Positions 55,530 through 62,280 of a stretch of 64,000 bases of DNA are shown piece by piece. The translations under genes and the position numbers were made by a program. The notes beneath the pieces are model-generated. The model saw only the letters and a list, made by a program, of their open reading frames with translations. It was not told the DNA's origin and made no database searches. How positions within the stretch are numbered: the stretch's first letter is position 1; every line of letters starts with the position of its first letter. Source of the stretch: Actinoplanes sp. NBC_00393. GTDB lineage: Bacteria; Actinomycetota; Actinomycetes; Mycobacteriales; Micromonosporaceae. Location: the NCBI RefSeq assembly GCF_036053395.1, contig NZ_CP107942.1:8829001-8893000 (forward strand). Reading direction: 5' to 3'.

Positions 55530-56125
55530 TCGACCCTGAGCTGATCTACAAACGTGGTGGCGAGGCGGGACAGCCGTTCGGCGCGTCCCTCCTCGGCCCA
55601 GCCGTCCACCAGGCTGAGCAGGGTGCTGCCCTCGACCAGGATGATGAAGTCGTCGATCACCGCCTCGTCGTCGACCTCGGTCCGCAGCTCGTCGAGCTCG
55701 CGGGCCTCGCGCAGGCAGTTGCGCAGGTGACCGCGGATCTCCTGGTGCGAGCGCCGCCGGGACTCGGCCAGCCGGGGATGCGACAGGGCGGCACCGGCGA
55801 ATGCCACGTTGACGTGCGCGTCGGCGGCGCGTTCCTCGTCGATCGGCAGCACCGCCTCGAGTGCGGCGCGCAGACCGGCCAGGCCGTCCAGGTTCTTGCC
55901 GATCTGGAAGGCGCGTTCGACGATCCGGTCGTACACCGCCTTCTGCGCGGCGACCAGAATGTCGTCCTTGCCGCCCAGGAAGTGGGCCAGCACGCTCAGC
56001 GAACAGCCGGCCTCGTCGGCGATGGCGCGCGTGGTCGTGCCCTCGACGCCCCGGGCCCGGACCACGCGCCAGGCGGCTGCGAGCAGCTCCGCTCTTCTCC
56101 GCTCGTGGTCCACCAGCCTTGGCAC
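55514..56125 (-). CDS. TetR-family regulator
   Basis: 203 aa. N-terminal HTH: RRAELLAAAWRVVRARGVEGTTTRAIADEAGCSLSVLAHFLGGKDDIL. The remaining helical domain has the ELRTEVDDEAVIDDFIILVEGSTLLSLVDGWAEEG pattern of TetR_C groups. It is convergent with the GH1 gene and upstream of an MFS gene on the same strand read in the other direction, so it may control either. Ligand unknown. Confidence 0.9.
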   Translation of the reverse strand: MPRLVDHERRRAELLAAAWRVVRARGVEGTTTRAIADEAGCSLSVLAHFLGGKDDILVAAQKAVYDRIVERAFQIGKNLDGLAGLRAALEAVLPIDEERAADAHVNVAFAGAALSHPRLAESRRRSHQEIRGHLRNCLREARELDELRTEVDDEAVIDDFIILVEGSTLLSLVDGWAEEGRAERLSRLATTFVDQLRVDQLRR

Positions 56126-56236
56126 GCGGCCAGCTTAGCCACCTGCCGTTTCCCGGCGGCCGCGCTGCGGCCTCGGGTGATGCCCGGCTCGCGCGGTAGC
56201 CGATAGACCTTTGGTAGCCCGTACCGATAAAAAGGG

Positions 56237-57415
56237 TTAAACCGGGGCCGAGACGCCCAGCGTGCGCAGGCGGCGTGCCAGCGGGAGGGTGGCTATGACC
56301 GCGACCACCGGGATCAGGAAGGCGGCCTGCAGGCCGACCGGTTCGGAAAGGGCGCCGAGCAGGACCGCGCCGAGCAGCGCGCCGCCGTAGTTGAAGAGGT
56401 TGACCTTGGCGATCACCTCGTCGCTGCTCTGCGCGGCGGCCTCGCCGGCGGCGCTGAAAGCCAGCGGGACCAGCACGCCGACGCCGATGCCGGCGATCGC
56501 GAACCCGGTCACCGCGGCGCCGATCGACGGCAGAATCGAGACGAGAGCGCAGCCCAGGCCGCAGACGGCGAGAGCGCCGAGAGCAATCGGGGTACGGCCG
56601 GCGCGCGGCACCACGTGGTCGGCGACAAGGCGGCTGACGAGTACGGCAGCCTGGTACGCGGCGTAGCCGAGCGGAGCCACCGAAGCGGCTGCGGTGAGCG
56701 AATCCTGCAGGTAGACGGTGCTCCACGTGCTCACCGCGGAATCGACCAGGAACGCTGTGAAGATCAACATGCCGCAGATCCAGACGACCGGGCGCACGCT
56801 CGGGCCGCCTTCGGCGTGGACGGCGGCCACCCGCTCGGTGCGGCCCGGTTCGAAGGTGCGCCAGCCGACCAGGCCGATCGTCGCAGCGAACGCGGCGGCC
56901 ACACCCACCGCGATGGCGGCGCCGGCACCGCTGGCCAGCATCCCCGACATGAGCAGCGCGGCGGCGATCGCGGCCGCGGTGTAGGCGGCGAAGAGCCGGC
57001 TCATCACACTGCGACCGAGCCGGGCCTGAACCAGCACACCCTGCATGCTCAGCGAGGCGTCGACCGCGCCGAGGCCGACACCGTACGCCAGCAGGATGGC
57101 CGTGAAGACCACGTTGGGCGTGCCGACCGTGGCGCCCGCCAGCCCCGCCGCCACCAGCAGCAGGCCGGACGCCAGCGCATACCGGCTGCCCCACCGGGCG
57201 GCGACCCGGTCGGCCAGCATCGACCCACCGGCCGCAGCGACACAGACCAGAAGCAGGATCGCGGAGACGAACGTGTCATCGATGCCCTGCCGATCCTTGA
57301 AGGTCGGCAGCGCAGTGACCACCGCGGCGTACCCGAGCCCCTGCGCGGCATACCCGGCCCCGATCAGCCGGGCCCGCGCGGCAGCCGGCATCACAGCCCC
57401 GCTCACGTCGGTCAT
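56237..57415 (-). CDS. MFS transporter, YbjJ-like
   Basis: 392 aa from ATG at 57415 with GAGG. Longer in-frame starts reach into the repeat region and are rejected. Twelve helices; ADRVAARWGSRYAL is the loop signature, and DASLSMQGVLVQARLGRSVMSRLFAAYTAAAI parallels the other YbjJ-like transporter in this window (31082-32260), which has the same length. Substrate unknown. Its promoter must lie in or near the start of the minisatellite region. Confidence 0.88.
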   Translation of the reverse strand: MTDVSGAVMPAAARARLIGAGYAAQGLGYAAVVTALPTFKDRQGIDDTFVSAILLLVCVAAAGGSMLADRVAARWGSRYALASGLLLVAAGLAGATVGTPNVVFTAILLAYGVGLGAVDASLSMQGVLVQARLGRSVMSRLFAAYTAAAIAAALLMSGMLASGAGAAIAVGVAAAFAATIGLVGWRTFEPGRTERVAAVHAEGGPSVRPVVWICGMLIFTAFLVDSAVSTWSTVYLQDSLTAAASVAPLGYAAYQAAVLVSRLVADHVVPRAGRTPIALGALAVCGLGCALVSILPSIGAAVTGFAIAGIGVGVLVPLAFSAAGEAAAQSSDEVIAKVNLFNYGGALLGAVLLGALSEPVGLQAAFLIPVVAVIATLPLARRLRTLGVSAPV

Positions 57416-57650
57416 CGTGCCTCGCTTCGAAGTCGGCGGCGATGGTGCTCGCAGCATGCCGCTCTCGATCGACAACAGCAACAGCTTGCCGGTTACGGTT
57501 CCGGCTTGCCTTCCCTTCATGCGTACGGGGCCCGCAGCCGCCGGTCGTGCGGGCAGCCTGTCCCGTCGCTCGCGTGAGCTTCTCGGCCCAGCCTCCAGAG
57601 CCACCAACGAGGGTCGCGTCGCCGCTACCGCCGAGTCGCCCGCCACCCGC

Positions 57651-58136
57651 GCCGATCGCGCGTTCCTTGCCGTCCGCGCCGATCGCGCGTTCCGTGCCGT
57701 CCGCGCCGATCGCGGGTTCCGTGCCGTCCGCGCCGATCGCGGGTTCCGTGCCGTCCGCGCCGATCGCGGGTTCCGTGCCGTCCGCGCCGATCGCGGGTTC
57801 CGTGCCGTCCGCGCCGATCGCGGGTTCCGTGCCGTCCGCGCCGATCGCGGGTTCCGTGCCGTCCGCGCCGATCGCGGGTTCCGTGCCGTCCGCGCCGATC
57901 GCGGGTTCCGTGCCGTCCGCGCCGATCGCGGGTTCCGTGCCGTCCGCGCCGATCGCGGGTTCCGTGCCGTCCGCGCCGATCGCGGGTTCCGTGCCGTCCG
58001 CGCCGATCGCGGGTTCCGTGCCGTCCGCGCCGATCGCGCGTTCCGTGCCGTCCGCGCCGATCGCGGGTTCCGTGCCGTCCGCGCCGATCGCGGGTTCCGT
58101 GCCGTCCGCGCCGATCGCGCGTTCCGTGCCGTCCGC
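57651..58136. repeat. 27-bp minisatellite, 18 tandem copies
   Basis: Unit GCCGATCGCGGGTTCCGTGC plus CGTCCGC repeats head to tail 18 times with almost no variation. Copies 1, 2, 15 and 18 carry C for G in GCG(G/C)GTTCC, and copy 1 also has TTCCTT for TTCCGT. The near identity points to recent expansion or ongoing gene conversion. It would read ADRGFRAVR in one phase, APIAGSVPS in another and ADGTEPAIG on the other strand. Confidence 0.95.
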
Positions 58137-58659
58137 GCTGCTGGTGCTGTGCCTGCCTGCGCCGTCTGCGCTGCCGGTGCCGTCTCCGCCTGCGCCGTCC
58201 GCGCCGCCGGTGCCGTCCCCGCCCGTGCCGTCCGCGCCGCCCGTGCCGTCCCCGCCTGCGCCGCCCGTGCCGTGCCTGCCTGCGCAGGTCCGCGCAGCCT
58301 GTGCCGTTCCGCGCAGCCCGTGCCGTCCCCGCCTATGCCGCCCGTGCCGTTCGCCGCCTATGCCGCCTGCGTCGCCCGTGCCGCCTGCGCGGCGCGTGCC
58401 GACGGCACGGCCACCACGACCGGCGCCGCCCGGCGAGGCCGCATGCCGATCGTTTGCCAAAATCTCGCCTTCGCAGGACCTATCACCATGCTGCTGTTTC
58501 GCCCCGCCACGCCGTTGCGCCGCCCGCTACGCAGCCGTGTGGCCGCCGTGCCGTCGCACCGCCCGCTGCGCCGCAGTCAGGCCGCCGTGCCATTGCGCGT
58601 GGTGCGCGCGCGGCTCTGTGGTGGCGCGCTGCGCCGCCGTGCCGTCGTGAGCGGCCGTG

Positions 58660-58736
58660 GCCCGCTCTTCCGCCTGGTGGCGCCGCTCTTCCGCTGGGTG
58701 GCGCCGCTCTTCCGCCGGGTGGCACCGCTCTTCGCC
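58660..58736. repeat. 21-bp tandem repeat, three copies plus partial
   Basis: GCCGCTCTTCCGCYTGGTGG-type units of 21 bp follow one another three times, then a shorter partial copy (CACCGCTCTTCGCC). It lies in a stretch without recognisable genes. Confidence 0.75.
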
Positions 58737-58951
58737 GCACCGCACCGACCCGCTGCGCTGCCGTTCCATTGCGTGGCGCTGCGCGGCTGTGTGGTGGCCC
58801 ACCGTTCCGTCGGTAGCAGCCGTGGCCTGCTCTCCCGCCGGCTTGAGCCGCTCTTTCGCCGCACCCCCGCCGACCTCAGCCGAGCTGATCTTGGCGGGCC
58901 CGGCGCGGCCGTCGCGCTCTCGCCCCGAGGGACTACTGATGACCCGCAACT

Positions 58952-59097
58952 GGCATAACTCACAGCCGACCCCTCCTTTTCGGCCTTATTGATCAATCAG
59001 CTGTGCGATATGGCTGCCTCACAGCTCGGGAGACAGCCATAACGCACAGCCGGAGTCCGGAAACCGCCCTAGTGGATCAGCGAGCTGTGCGTTATGG
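58952..59097. repeat. Four alternately oriented copies of a GCTGTGCGTTATGGC motif
   Basis: Copies: 58952-58966 (reverse, two mismatches), 59000-59016 (forward, one mismatch), 59034-59050 (reverse), 59084-59097 (forward). The two forward copies are also preceded by GATCA at the same 4-base distance. The pair 59000-59050 could fold into a hairpin with 16 of 17 bases paired. Confidence 0.85.
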
Positions 59098-59175
59098 ACG
59101 TGGGCCGACCCACGACCTTCCTCCCGACACGGCAGGCGGCACGCTGCTCTCCCATCCGCTTGGCCACGCTCCCTC

Positions 59176-59340
59176 GGTGCGGGGTGCGGGGTGCGGGGTG
59201 CGGGGTGCGGGGTGCGGGGTGCGGGGTGCGGGGTGCGGGGTGCGGGGTGCGGGGTGCGGGGTGCGGGGTGCGGGGTGCGGGGTGCGGGGTGCGGGGTGCG
59301 GGGTGCGGGGTGCGGGGTGCGGGGTGCGGGGTGCGGGGTG
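59176..59340. repeat. Heptanucleotide array (GGTGCGG), about 23.6 copies
   Basis: 165 bp of perfect 7-bp repeat on the plus strand, that is GGGG runs separated by TGC. It ends 52 bp after mqnB's stop on the minus strand (59393). Such spacing of G-runs satisfies the G-quadruplex pattern many times over. Confidence 0.97.
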
Positions 59341-59392
59341 GCCCGGGTTTCGCGGTTGGCAAGGCGAGCCCCCGGGTAGGGATACCGCGCGC

Positions 59393-60025
59393 TCAGGGGA
59401 GTGTGGTCAGTGCGGGCGCGGCAGCGCGTAAGGCCGCGAACGCATCGGCCAGGCGCCAGGCTGCGCGGTCTCGGGGGCCGATCGGGTTGGAGATGGTGCG
59501 CAGCTCAGCGAACGGAACGCCGGCACCGGCGGCGGCGCTGGCCACGCCGTACCCCTCCATGGCCTCGGCGACAGCCTGCGGGAAACGAGCCGCGAGCCGA
59601 TCGGTGGTCGCGGCCGTGCCGGTGACCGTGCTGAGCGTGAGGACATCGCCGACGATGGCCTCGGGCAAGGCGCTGCGCAAGGCTTTGACCAGCATCGGAT
59701 CGCATTCCAGGACGCTGGTGCCGAATCCGAGTTCCTCGACCGGCAGGAAGCCGTCGGGGGTTTCGGCGCCCAGGTCGGCTGCGATGCTGCGGACAGCGAG
59801 CACAGTGCCGCCGACCGGGGCCCGGCCAGGGAAGCCGCCTGCGATGCCGGCGCTGAGCACCGCGCGGTACTGGCGGGTTGCGAGAAGCCGCGCGGTTCCG
59901 GCGGCCGCGGCGGCTGGGCCGACGTCTACGGCCTCGACCGCGATCAAAGCCGGGTCGATCTCCGCACGAAGGGCGTCAGCCTCGGCATCCACCGCGGTCA
60001 CCACCAGGATGGGGTACGCGTTCAC
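59393..60025 (-). CDS. mqnB: Futalosine hydrolase
   Basis: 210 aa from GTG at 60025, overlapping the stop of the upstream MFS gene (GTGA). It removes hypoxanthine from futalosine in the alternative menaquinone pathway. The nucleosidase fold shows ILVVTAVDAEADAL, VLSAGIAGGFPG, AEAMEGYGVASAA (with the Met-Glu-Gly binding motif) and ELRTISNPIGPRD. With mqnD it shows the organism uses the futalosine route. The two genes are contiguous in Streptomyces but split here. Confidence 0.93.
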   Translation of the reverse strand: MNAYPILVVTAVDAEADALRAEIDPALIAVEAVDVGPAAAAAGTARLLATRQYRAVLSAGIAGGFPGRAPVGGTVLAVRSIAADLGAETPDGFLPVEELGFGTSVLECDPMLVKALRSALPEAIVGDVLTLSTVTGTAATTDRLAARFPQAVAEAMEGYGVASAAAGAGVPFAELRTISNPIGPRDRAAWRLADAFAALRAAAPALTTLP

Positions 60026-62280
60026 GACTCCTCGCCGCTCCCCGGCTCACCGTTGCGGGTACCCGAACCAGCGCTGGACGGCCGGTACACGTGGTATCCC
60101 GGCGGCGCGGATCCCCCAGCCCGCTGCTCGCTGTCACCCGGTGCCCGTTCCTCGCTCCCACCCAGGTCGGCATGGGCCGGCCGCTGCTCGCTCGCGCTCC
60201 GTTCCGCGCGGCTCAGCCGTTCGTCGCGAGGGCCTCGTTCCGAACGGGCTGTCCGTTCGTCGTCCGGCGGGCTTCCCACCTGCGGGCGGCTGTCGGCGGG
60301 CTTGTCCTCGCGCCACCCGCGCCACCACTTCCGGACGGCCGGTGGCTCCACCAACGTCGGATCCAGCCCTCGGGACTCCGCTGATTCGGCGCCGACTCCC
60401 TGACTGGTCTGAACAGAGCGGCCCCGGCGACCCGATTCGGCGCCTGGGTTGGCCTCGACAGAACGGTCCGGAGCGCGGCGGTCCCCGATCCCGCCGGCTT
60501 TGCTGGGCTCGCCGTTGGTGCGCGATCCGCGGCCCTGCGATGTGCTGTCGGTGTGGCGCGGGTCGGATCCGCCCGTGGTTCCGCGGGTGGCGGGGGAGCG
60601 ACGCTGCGGTGGTGCGCTGCTCGGCCCCGGCACGGTGGGCGCGTCCGGCCACGGGTCAGCGGGCAGTGCCGAATCCGGGCCGTCCCCCGGATCGAAGCCG
60701 GCGCCGGAACGAGGGCCAGCGCCAGCGCCGGAACGAGGGCCAGCGCCAACGCCGGATCGAGGGCCGGAATGAAGGCCAGAGCCGGGTCCGGCATGAGAGC
60801 CAAGACCGGAGTGAGGATCGACGCCAGGACCGTACTCCGGAGGGTCTTCCAAGTCTTTGAGCTCGACCACAGCATCGTCATCGCGACGGTTCGGGTCGGT
60901 GGCTGCCTCGGCGTCGGGACGCCCGGCCAGGCGTTCGTTGTGCATGCGGGCGGCAGCCCACGCCGCGCGACCCGCGCCGAGCACCGCCAGCACCGCGGCG
61001 AGTGCGATGCCGAACCGGCCGGTCAGCGGGATCAGGCCGATGCCGCCGCCGGCCACCCAGGCGAGCATGAGCACCGTCTCGGAATGGGCGAACGCGGTGG
61101 CCCGCAGTTTCTCCGGTACCCGTTCCTGGATGCTGGCGTCCACCGCCAGCTTGGCGATCCCGCTGAAGATCGCGGTGAACAGCGCCAGCAGGGTGACCGT
61201 CGCGAGGTTGTAGAAGATCGTGGCCAGCACGGCCACGCCGGCGGTGAGCACCAGGCCGCTGGACTGCAGGGCCAGCGGGCGGCGGATGGTCAGGCCGGTG
61301 CCGGCTGCGGTGGACAGGAAGGTGCCCAGGGCCAGGGCCGCGCCGACCACGCCGACGGCGGCGCCGCGGCTGAGTTCGGCGCCGAAGACGGTGGTGTTCA
61401 GGTCGTTGCCCATGATCGCGAAGGTCAGGAAGAGCAGCAGGAAGCCGTAGAGCAGCCGCAGGCTGGCGCTGCCGATCAGGGTGGCCAGGACGAGCCGGTT
61501 GGCGAGCGGGCGATCGGCGCCGCGGCCCACCCGGAGCACCGCGCGCCAGGGGCGGGGCATGGCCTCGGGCGGGTCGGAGTCGGCGCGGGGTGGCAGGCGC
61601 AGCGAGACGACGACGCCGATCATGAAGATGACGGTGGCGACCCGCAGCGGCCACTGTGGCCCGAACTTGAAGGCGAGCAGGCCGATCGGGGCGACCAGGA
61701 TGCCGGCGAACGTCCCGTACACGCTGGCCCGGGCACCCACCTGGGACAGTCCGACGCCGGCCGGGAGCAGGCGGGGCACGGCTGCGGAGCGGGCCACCCC
61801 GTACGCCCGGGAGAGCGCCAGCACCCCGAAAGCGGCCGGGTAGAGGCCCCAGCCCAGCAGGTTGTCGGCCATGACGTAGGCCAGGAACGCGCGGCCCAGC
61901 ATGGTGGTGGCCAGCGCATATCGCCGGCCGTGCCGGAAGTGGTCGAGCAGCGGGCCGACGACCGGTGCCAGCAGCGCGAACGGCACCATCGTGATGAGCA
62001 GGTAGAGGGCCACCTTGCTGCGGGCCTCGCCGAGCGGGACGCTGAAGATGGTCCCGGCCAGGCCGATCGCGATGAGCGCGTCGCCGGCGCAGGAGATCGC
62101 GTGCAGGTCGAAGAGCCGGATCATGCCGACCTCGTTGGCCGCGCCGCGGGCCCGGGCCGAGCCGACCCGGCGGGTGGCCCAGGCGCTGCCGCGCACCGAA
62201 CCGCGCACCACCATCCGCACCGCCCTGATGCCGGTGCCGACGGTGCGTCCGAGTGTGGGAAGCAACGGCATGGGAACCAT
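60022..62280 (-). CDS. MFS transporter with a long disordered C-terminal tail (Rv0876c-like)
   Basis: 752 aa from ATG at 62280 (MVPMPLLPTLGRTV; a second ATG three codons on is possible). A basic N-terminal stretch (about residues 1-45) is followed by an MFS domain of twelve helices up to about residue 440. The last 300 residues are charged and low complexity: Gly/Pro/Ser units (GPRSGVGAGPRSGAGAGPRSG), then Arg/Glu/Ser-rich sequence. Such a cytoplasmic tail is rare for MFS proteins. Position beside DUF3027 matches Rv0876c-Rv0877. Its stop is coupled to the mqnB start, so menaquinone-related transport is an idea only. Confidence 0.82.
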   Translation of the reverse strand: MVPMPLLPTLGRTVGTGIRAVRMVVRGSVRGSAWATRRVGSARARGAANEVGMIRLFDLHAISCAGDALIAIGLAGTIFSVPLGEARSKVALYLLITMVPFALLAPVVGPLLDHFRHGRRYALATTMLGRAFLAYVMADNLLGWGLYPAAFGVLALSRAYGVARSAAVPRLLPAGVGLSQVGARASVYGTFAGILVAPIGLLAFKFGPQWPLRVATVIFMIGVVVSLRLPPRADSDPPEAMPRPWRAVLRVGRGADRPLANRLVLATLIGSASLRLLYGFLLLFLTFAIMGNDLNTTVFGAELSRGAAVGVVGAALALGTFLSTAAGTGLTIRRPLALQSSGLVLTAGVAVLATIFYNLATVTLLALFTAIFSGIAKLAVDASIQERVPEKLRATAFAHSETVLMLAWVAGGGIGLIPLTGRFGIALAAVLAVLGAGRAAWAAARMHNERLAGRPDAEAATDPNRRDDDAVVELKDLEDPPEYGPGVDPHSGLGSHAGPGSGLHSGPRSGVGAGPRSGAGAGPRSGAGFDPGDGPDSALPADPWPDAPTVPGPSSAPPQRRSPATRGTTGGSDPRHTDSTSQGRGSRTNGEPSKAGGIGDRRAPDRSVEANPGAESGRRGRSVQTSQGVGAESAESRGLDPTLVEPPAVRKWWRGWREDKPADSRPQVGSPPDDERTARSERGPRDERLSRAERSASEQRPAHADLGGSEERAPGDSEQRAGGSAPPGYHVYRPSSAGSGTRNGEPGSGEES

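Follow-up and report, generated by a model that had tools for sequence, protein, structure and literature searches.

In the literature consulted, accounts of REP and BIME repeats concern Proteobacteria and a small number of further phyla, and repeats of the GTAG kind are usually mobilised by a RAYT. In a REPIN, inverted palindromes are dispersed as a unit, and a MITE is a non-coding element with inverted arms that occurs in many copies. REPs have been sorted into a GTAG and a CGTC superfamily, the latter with a list of five phyla among which Actinobacteria do not figure, and the word Actino- is absent from the main text of that source (PMC3733652); Actinobacteria are likewise unmentioned in the main text of two further accounts (PMC6006769; PMC2817692). 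For the genus Actinoplanes, many stable GC-rich secondary structures are reported to have hampered sequencing of the SE50/110 genome, and short repetitive elements are noted there, with no hairpin family mentioned in the accessible part of that paper (PMC3364876). A search of the open-access literature returned no description of repeats such as those reported here for Actinoplanes or Micromonosporaceae.

The element under study lies in a window of 64,000 nucleotides from the genome of Actinoplanes sp. NBC_00393. It is composed of four alternating arms of GCTGTGCGTTATGGC at 58952-59098, with 2, 1, 0, and 1 mismatches in order (Table 1). Mismatch-tolerant mapping of the motif in the window bears out the reverse, forward, reverse, forward order given in the first-pass annotation, as well as the GATCA box four bases upstream of both forward copies. 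The two outer spacings of 33 bases stand; the middle one, put at 17, is counted as 21. The middle pair does form a stem as had been proposed, but the 16/17-bp extent assigned to it covers only the core of a longer stem at 58998-59052, in which 20 of 23 pairs are Watson-Crick. With up to three mismatches the motif is found nine times in the window against 1.75 expected, a count reached in 0 of 100 shuffles; with up to two, there are six matches, four of them in the element, compared with a mean of 0.17 and a maximum of 2 in 40 random 64 kb sequences of equal base make-up. The element was also rightly described as AT-richer than the rest of the repeat field, its GC content over two 150-bp intervals being 0.59-0.61 versus 0.70-0.85, with the exception of 0.66 at the gene edge 57400-57549.

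Table 1: Features at and around the four-armed element (window positions).
Feature	Position	Strand	Remarks
MFS transporter, neighbouring gene	56237-57415	-	PF07690
Lineage-specific intergenic stretch, about 1.9 kb, holding the element	57506-59389		BLAST blocks end at 57505 and restart at 59390
27-bp tandem array, 18 copies	57647-58138		inside the lineage-specific stretch
Four-armed family member (arm 1 -, arm 2 +, arm 3 -, arm 4 +)	58949-59100	+	model R1, 131.5 bits, E 3.4e-38 over the window
Arm 1, GCTGTGAGTTATGCC	58952-58966	-	2 mismatches
GATCA box ahead of arm 2	58991-58995	+	four bases upstream of the arm
Central hairpin, 55 nt, 23-bp stem (20 Watson-Crick), 9-nt loop	58998-59052		model R2, 58.9 bits, E 1.9e-14
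Arm 2, GCTGTGCGATATGGC	59000-59014	+	1 mismatch
Arm 3, GCTGTGCGTTATGGC	59036-59050	-	0 mismatches
GATCA box ahead of arm 4	59075-59079	+	four bases upstream of the arm
Arm 4, GCTGTGCGTTATGGA	59084-59098	+	1 mismatch
7-bp tandem array GGTGCGG, 23.6 copies	59176-59340		inside the lineage-specific gap
PNP_UDP_1 family protein, neighbouring gene	59393-60025	-	PF01048

The exact 14-mer GCTGTGCGNTATGG recurs in the 11.43 Mb genome at one other locus, C1:867450-867547, which holds three copies in an order and at spacings that match those of the window element. Because the exact 14-mer is confined to two loci, wider patterns were used. The pattern TTGATCANYCGGCTG around the GATCA box, with at most one mismatch, gives 82 matches in the genome versus 6 for the reversed control. 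An alignment of 16 members (A1), one of which is the window element, yielded a 152-nt model (R1) that recovers at least 34 places in the genome at E ≤ 1e-17, 18 of them outside the training set; this number is a lower bound, 150 of 13,980 candidates having been scored. Each of the four copies in the window is an arm of a single member of a family of hairpin repeats that is dispersed in Actinoplanes. That the motif might occur nowhere else, which the first-pass annotation had named as counting against its own reading, is nearly true of the exact 14-mer and false for this much larger family of variants. A second subfamily, with CGGCCG...AGCGCTGTC arms and a mirrored GATCA spacer, is seen in the same genome (L049, L054, L057, L061), three of its four members having a four-arm element no more than about 700 bp away. 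The window element is probably a REP/BIME-like, non-autonomous mobile element, and its mover would be a putative trans-acting enzyme.

The core of the family is a 55-nt hairpin that reads CGGCTG, eight variable bases, GGCTG, YCTC, a loop of nine bases, and then the complement. The frames of the hairpin are constant; its 8-bp middle varies between and within species and yet remains complementary, and its flanks have almost no conserved bases. In an alignment of 61 hairpins from the own genome, eight relatives, A. utahensis, A. palleronii, and A. aureus, 92.7% of the cells over the whole stem are paired, a value partly given by design, because the frames were prescribed by the search pattern and the regular expression. 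No search pattern constrains the eight middle pairs; these are paired in 85.0% of cells, compared with 60.5% after shuffling and at most 46.1% in a slid control. They hold 135 double changes versus 52.4 in shuffles, 0 of 500 shuffles being as high; the slid control is the safer measure, since related sequences inflate double-change counts.

In the own genome, likeness between arms of the same element was determined for 29 of 34 elements. It is most marked for arms 2 and 3 (0.66 within elements versus 0.58 ± 0.02 between elements, p ≤ 0.0005), less so for arms 2 and 4 (p 0.008), and weak for arms 3 and 4 (p 0.06); arm 1 has no within-element likeness to arms 2, 3, and 4 (p 0.20 for arms 1 and 2), and a misplaced arm 3 in L074, L084, and L092 added noise to these values. 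In the 14 elements of A. aureus, the corresponding figures for arms 2 and 3 are 0.874 and 0.833 (p 0.006; p 0.039 if the outlier L311 is omitted), and one copy, L308, carries an identical changed block on both arms. The making and mending of hairpins by template switching has been described (PMC8794818). The pattern of the arms suits template switching between them, and selection for pairing is also possible. Some hairpins, as seen in A. utahensis (L121, 5548-5622), gain a palindromic flank of 8-10 bp that is private to the copy.

Pairing of this kind might also be expected of a structured small RNA encoded by the element, an idea raised in the first-pass annotation. In addition to the covariation, the stable fold of 58945-59105 (-62.1 kcal/mol, z -2.75 as RNA) would speak for it; the fold is, however, equally unusual when calculated as DNA (z -2.61). 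A covariance-model search of 57000-61000 gives no Rfam match up to E 5, the five weak Rfam matches at ten other loci are all below the gathering score, and a scan covering the sigma-70 type finds no promoter-like site at the element. Both strands match models R1 and R2, since the family is near-palindromic. A structured regulatory RNA is, consequently, considered most unlikely.

The distribution of the family was followed in 38 genomes with the half-site pattern CGGCTGN8GGSTGYYTC, read on both strands, so that a full hairpin counts twice. There are 94 half-sites in the own genome, 626 in A. palleronii (G014), 385 in G010, 92 in A. utahensis (G231), 33 in G019, 30 in G016, 14 each in G015 and G209, 12 in G007, and 0-10 in the others, which makes a range of 0 to 626 over 35 Actinoplanes genomes; the reversed control gives 0-1 per strand in each of the 38. 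Exact half-site counts are not copy numbers: the sisters G010 and G216 differ by 385 versus 1, yet G216 has at least 16 matches to the hairpin model R2, whose underlying alignment includes the window hairpin, so that part of the differences would reflect sequence change rather than copy number. Model R1 matches 9 of 35 other Actinoplanes genomes and 0 of 24 genomes of other families in the order. In A. aureus (G015), 14 full-length R1 copies are present at E ≤ 1e-19, 13 of which resemble one another along most of a length of about 180 bp; by eye, the left end of the element is bordered in most copies by short tandem repeats of the CGGCN type (L298-L310). Model R2 finds matches in at least 25 of 200 genomes of the bacterial family, 14 from Actinoplanes including the own genome and 11 from other genera, these counts being lower bounds with at most 28 candidates scored per genome; the 11 have at most nine weak matches each, with a best E of 3.4e-8, and these matches may come from hairpins outside the repeat family. 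In a search of 84,980 species, which may omit records very near the own genome, the exact 53-nt pattern occurs in A. utahensis, A. palleronii, and A. aureus only.

On a midpoint-rooted tree of 50 genomes, 44 were scored (18 with the family, that is with an R2 or R1 match, and 26 without, 6 of these negatives from R1 only) and 6 were left unscored; the labels change 4 times versus 14 in shuffles, and one group of 23 genomes is without the family. As presence follows the tree, any movement between species would be hypothetical. The exact pattern has 0 matches in viral contigs, blastn with the window element against plasmids and phages returned none, and a named-genome scan with a 21-mer gave 0. 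On the zero counts for viral contigs, plasmids, and phages, a phage or plasmid origin was set aside.

Placement relative to genes was examined at 69 loci for hairpins with at most four frame mismatches, on the basis of own gene calling and not of curated annotation. None of 119 hairpins lies inside a called gene, and 5 are without a neighbour on one side. The 60 gaps with a hairpin comprise 37 convergent, 18 tandem, and 5 divergent ones; the corresponding numbers for the 210 gaps without a hairpin at the same loci, among which are counted own gaps with a four-arm element in which the hairpin is more degenerate, are 31, 101, and 78. The excess of convergent gaps (37 of 60 versus 31 of 210) has a p value of 3.6e-12. 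The four-arm element is found in 12 convergent, 7 tandem, and 1 divergent gap at 20 own loci; the window gap belongs to the tandem class, as both of its neighbours are on the minus strand. A Pfam scan of 27 of the 40 flanking genes (18 of the 20 loci) and of three window genes found unrelated families; 7 of the 27 are without a Pfam match, 0 belong to transposase families, and two have regulator domains.

These data bear on the regulator-site cluster considered in the first-pass annotation, according to which the motif copies would be binding sites for a regulator or a nucleoid protein. The alternating, spaced 14-mers at two loci would agree with it, as would the GATCA box, which is invariant across the 16 aligned members, most of them, though, found by a pattern containing GATCA. 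A middle of 8 bp that varies while pairing is kept, gaps that are mostly convergent and hence not promoter gaps, and the unrelated neighbours all argue against such sites, and this explanation is regarded as very unlikely.

The preference for convergent gaps would fit functional 3'-end structures, that is, bidirectional terminators or mRNA stabilisers lacking a T-run, which are kept by selection at convergent ends and owe their likeness to shared function and local copying instead of mobility. In line with this, some hairpins nearly fill the space between two stop codons, as in A. utahensis L123 (55 of 69 bp), and at one orthologous site pairing is kept despite sequence divergence (L249-L252). 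The window hairpin itself has no T-run, and no terminator-like site is found within 57300-59500, in accordance with the earlier remark that the element is unlike a terminator. Moreover, in G010 nine hairpins with a 107-bp period are arrayed in a single gap (L247), which is beyond any need for termination, and the group of 23 genomes manages without the family. The gap between sigA and nlpC, matched in 67 of 67 genomes, is instructive in this respect: a terminator-like repeat, GGCCGG...CCGGCC, is present in all 30 loci read, 25 of which have no R2 match. The five loci with an R2 match are that of A. utahensis, where it is strong (E 1.2e-19), and the diverged ones of G254, G029, G250, and G088 (E 1.7e-7 to 2.4e-12). 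Taken together, a role as 3'-end structure is deemed unlikely. By eye, two of the 25 sigA-nlpC loci lacking an R2 match, L260 and L261, have a second terminator-like hairpin at the place.

A non-autonomous mobile element, the preferred reading, would be expected to be present or absent at orthologous sites. The stretch of about 1.9 kb holding the window element is absent at the matching site in 17 of 17 relatives, in which the flanking gene order is kept; the distance is 2042 bp here versus 139-779 bp in these relatives, and the flanking BLAST blocks are separated by 30 bp in the nearest relative, A. aureus (G015). Model R1 finds no full-length element at the window site in the 17 relatives, only partial matches to the hairpin part. 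G019 (L381) has two R2 hairpins in this gap; its sister G021 has none. One R2 hairpin each is seen in G231 (L390), G014 (L392), G209 (L394), and G007 (L391) in the adjoining gap on the far side of the MFS gene, for which the own genome gives no R2 match (window, about 56114-56236). Similarly, the hairpin that G010 carries in L228 is without an R2 match in the corresponding gap of 9 of 9 relatives, the two matches in L366 lying elsewhere. The extra DNA in comparison with close sisters amounts to about 1.9 kb in the window, about 257 bp in G010, and, with two hairpins included, 138 bp in G019; as this is far longer than one hairpin, the gain may be an expansion of intergenic DNA. No target-site duplication or sharp insertion boundary is seen in the hairpins and loci compared. 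A different dispersed repeat of about 160 bp adjoins a hairpin array in G010 (L228:2420-2582), with many copies in G216 and G247 at about 80-96% identity among the matches listed.

Alternatively, the repeats might be left behind by replication slippage and template switching where intergenic DNA grows fast, with palindromes that arise and are copied locally and need no dedicated enzyme to move them. Tandem arrays adjoin the window element, and in the own genome they occur in 14 of 21 gaps with a four-arm element versus 13 of 50 without. The matched multi-base changes on both arms and the hairpin making and mending described in PMC8794818 would be compatible with such an origin. So would the sigA-nlpC gap of G026 (L253) and G243 (L254): at the position that family hairpins occupy in relatives, these two show, by eye, palindromes of unrelated sequence, which one mobile family alone leaves unexplained. 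On the other hand, the frames CGGCTG and GGCTG recur at widely separated chromosomal places and in numerous species, and local processes carry no sequence to distant sites. Tandem-repeat density is also only modestly higher in element gaps (3359 of 20381 bp versus 1960 of 17545 bp in the others), and arrays are about equally frequent in the two sets of gaps in G010, A. utahensis, and A. palleronii. Slippage as sole source of the family is therefore judged improbable. An association of the element with tandem repeats was itself tried and found to be weak after gap length is considered, the four-arm elements of the own genome sitting in long gaps that are generally rich in tandem repeats. Both window arrays are nearly perfect and open in several reading frames; the 7-bp array (59176-59338) has counterparts among arrays at unrelated positions of other Actinoplanes genomes, the identity being 99% over 163 bp in G029, 81% in G007, and 100% in both G019 (93 bp) and G197 (68 bp).

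For the mobile element favoured here, the following scenario can be envisaged. The hairpin would form in single-stranded DNA, where recognition would lead to its being copied, or moved, into further intergenic positions. Insertions would survive mainly at the 3' ends of genes, since promoters and coding sequence are left uncut there. The stem arms would stay complementary via template switching during replication, as suggested by single copies that show the same multi-change block on both arms. In the window element, it looks as if an arm-1-like sequence had been copied onto the other arms, so that four near-identical copies are visible.

What moves the hairpins is the question posed by the family. 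The Y1_Tnp domain (PF01797) has two matches in the own genome, one with an inner stop, and neither has a hairpin half-site in the surrounding 3 kb. Nine of 27 other genomes have a match, namely 6 of 14 hairpin-bearing ones, 2 of 12 others, and G254, which is unscored for the family label and has a diverged hairpin at one site; G231, with its 92 half-sites, has none. Among 20 fetched PF01797 loci of 31 listed, one has hairpins near, a 26-position match at a contig edge, and five have a neighbouring ORF with OrfB_IS605 or TNB domains, as in IS605. The check for a REP-associated transposase proposed in the first-pass annotation thus revealed no RAYT beside the repeats with PF01797, the one domain model used, which more diverged RAYTs could escape. 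Its suggestion of a REP-like mobile element holds insofar as the family is dispersed, intergenic, hairpin-forming, arranged in arrays, and present or absent at orthologous sites; the transposase that would go with it is not found by this domain. Sites of presence and absence, together with matched arm changes, offer a natural test of template switching versus selection for palindrome pairing.

In comparison with known systems, the family resembles the CGTC repeats of the RPE type in being high-copy hairpins without a known dedicated transposase, but their stem, as given in the part of the source consulted, is 8-9 bp long versus 23 bp here (PMC3733652), and a CGTC tag lies within 12 bp of 10.1% of the hairpin ends versus 5.9% in the background. 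The dispersal of inverted palindromes together is reminiscent of REPINs, with the difference that here one central hairpin is accompanied by outlying half-hairpins and no RAYT is found (PF01797). With MITEs, the family shares a non-coding nature, a length of about 150-190 bp, inverted arms, and many copies (13 of 14 alike in A. aureus); unlike in MITEs, the inverted repeats are central and not terminal. Neither a target duplication nor a cognate transposase was identified, the latter with PF01797. Traits are also shared with the GTAG-type REP/BIME repeats, which in the consulted parts of two sources are short palindromes outside genes that occur in high copy number, alone or in groups, and fall into subfamilies set apart by complementary changes in the stem (PMC3733652; PMC2817692). 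The present family is extragenic (0 of 119 in genes) and of high copy number (up to 626 half-sites), and BIME-like alternation at regular spacing and tandem arrays are found in the four arms and in the nine-hairpin array of G010. It differs in size, the stems being 6-13 bp and the repeats 20-40 nt there (PMC3733652, in part) versus 23 bp and 55 nt here, and in the tag, GT[AG]G being present at a distance of at most 12 bp in 3.4% of 238 hairpin flanks versus 6.7% of the background. With no tag, no RAYT found, and copies that number in the hundreds in some genomes, such an actinomycete family would broaden the class. It is conceivable, albeit rather doubtful, that it represents a third bacterial REP class in Actinobacteria, with constant frames, a species-specific self-complementary 8-bp middle that drifts in each lineage to its own form and is possibly read by a cognate protein, RAYT-free spread, and stem renewal by template switching. 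Since tag, size, and RAYT association were tested and depart from those of REPs proper, the family is filed as REP/BIME-like and not as REP, and it is placed outside the described GTAG and CGTC superfamilies.
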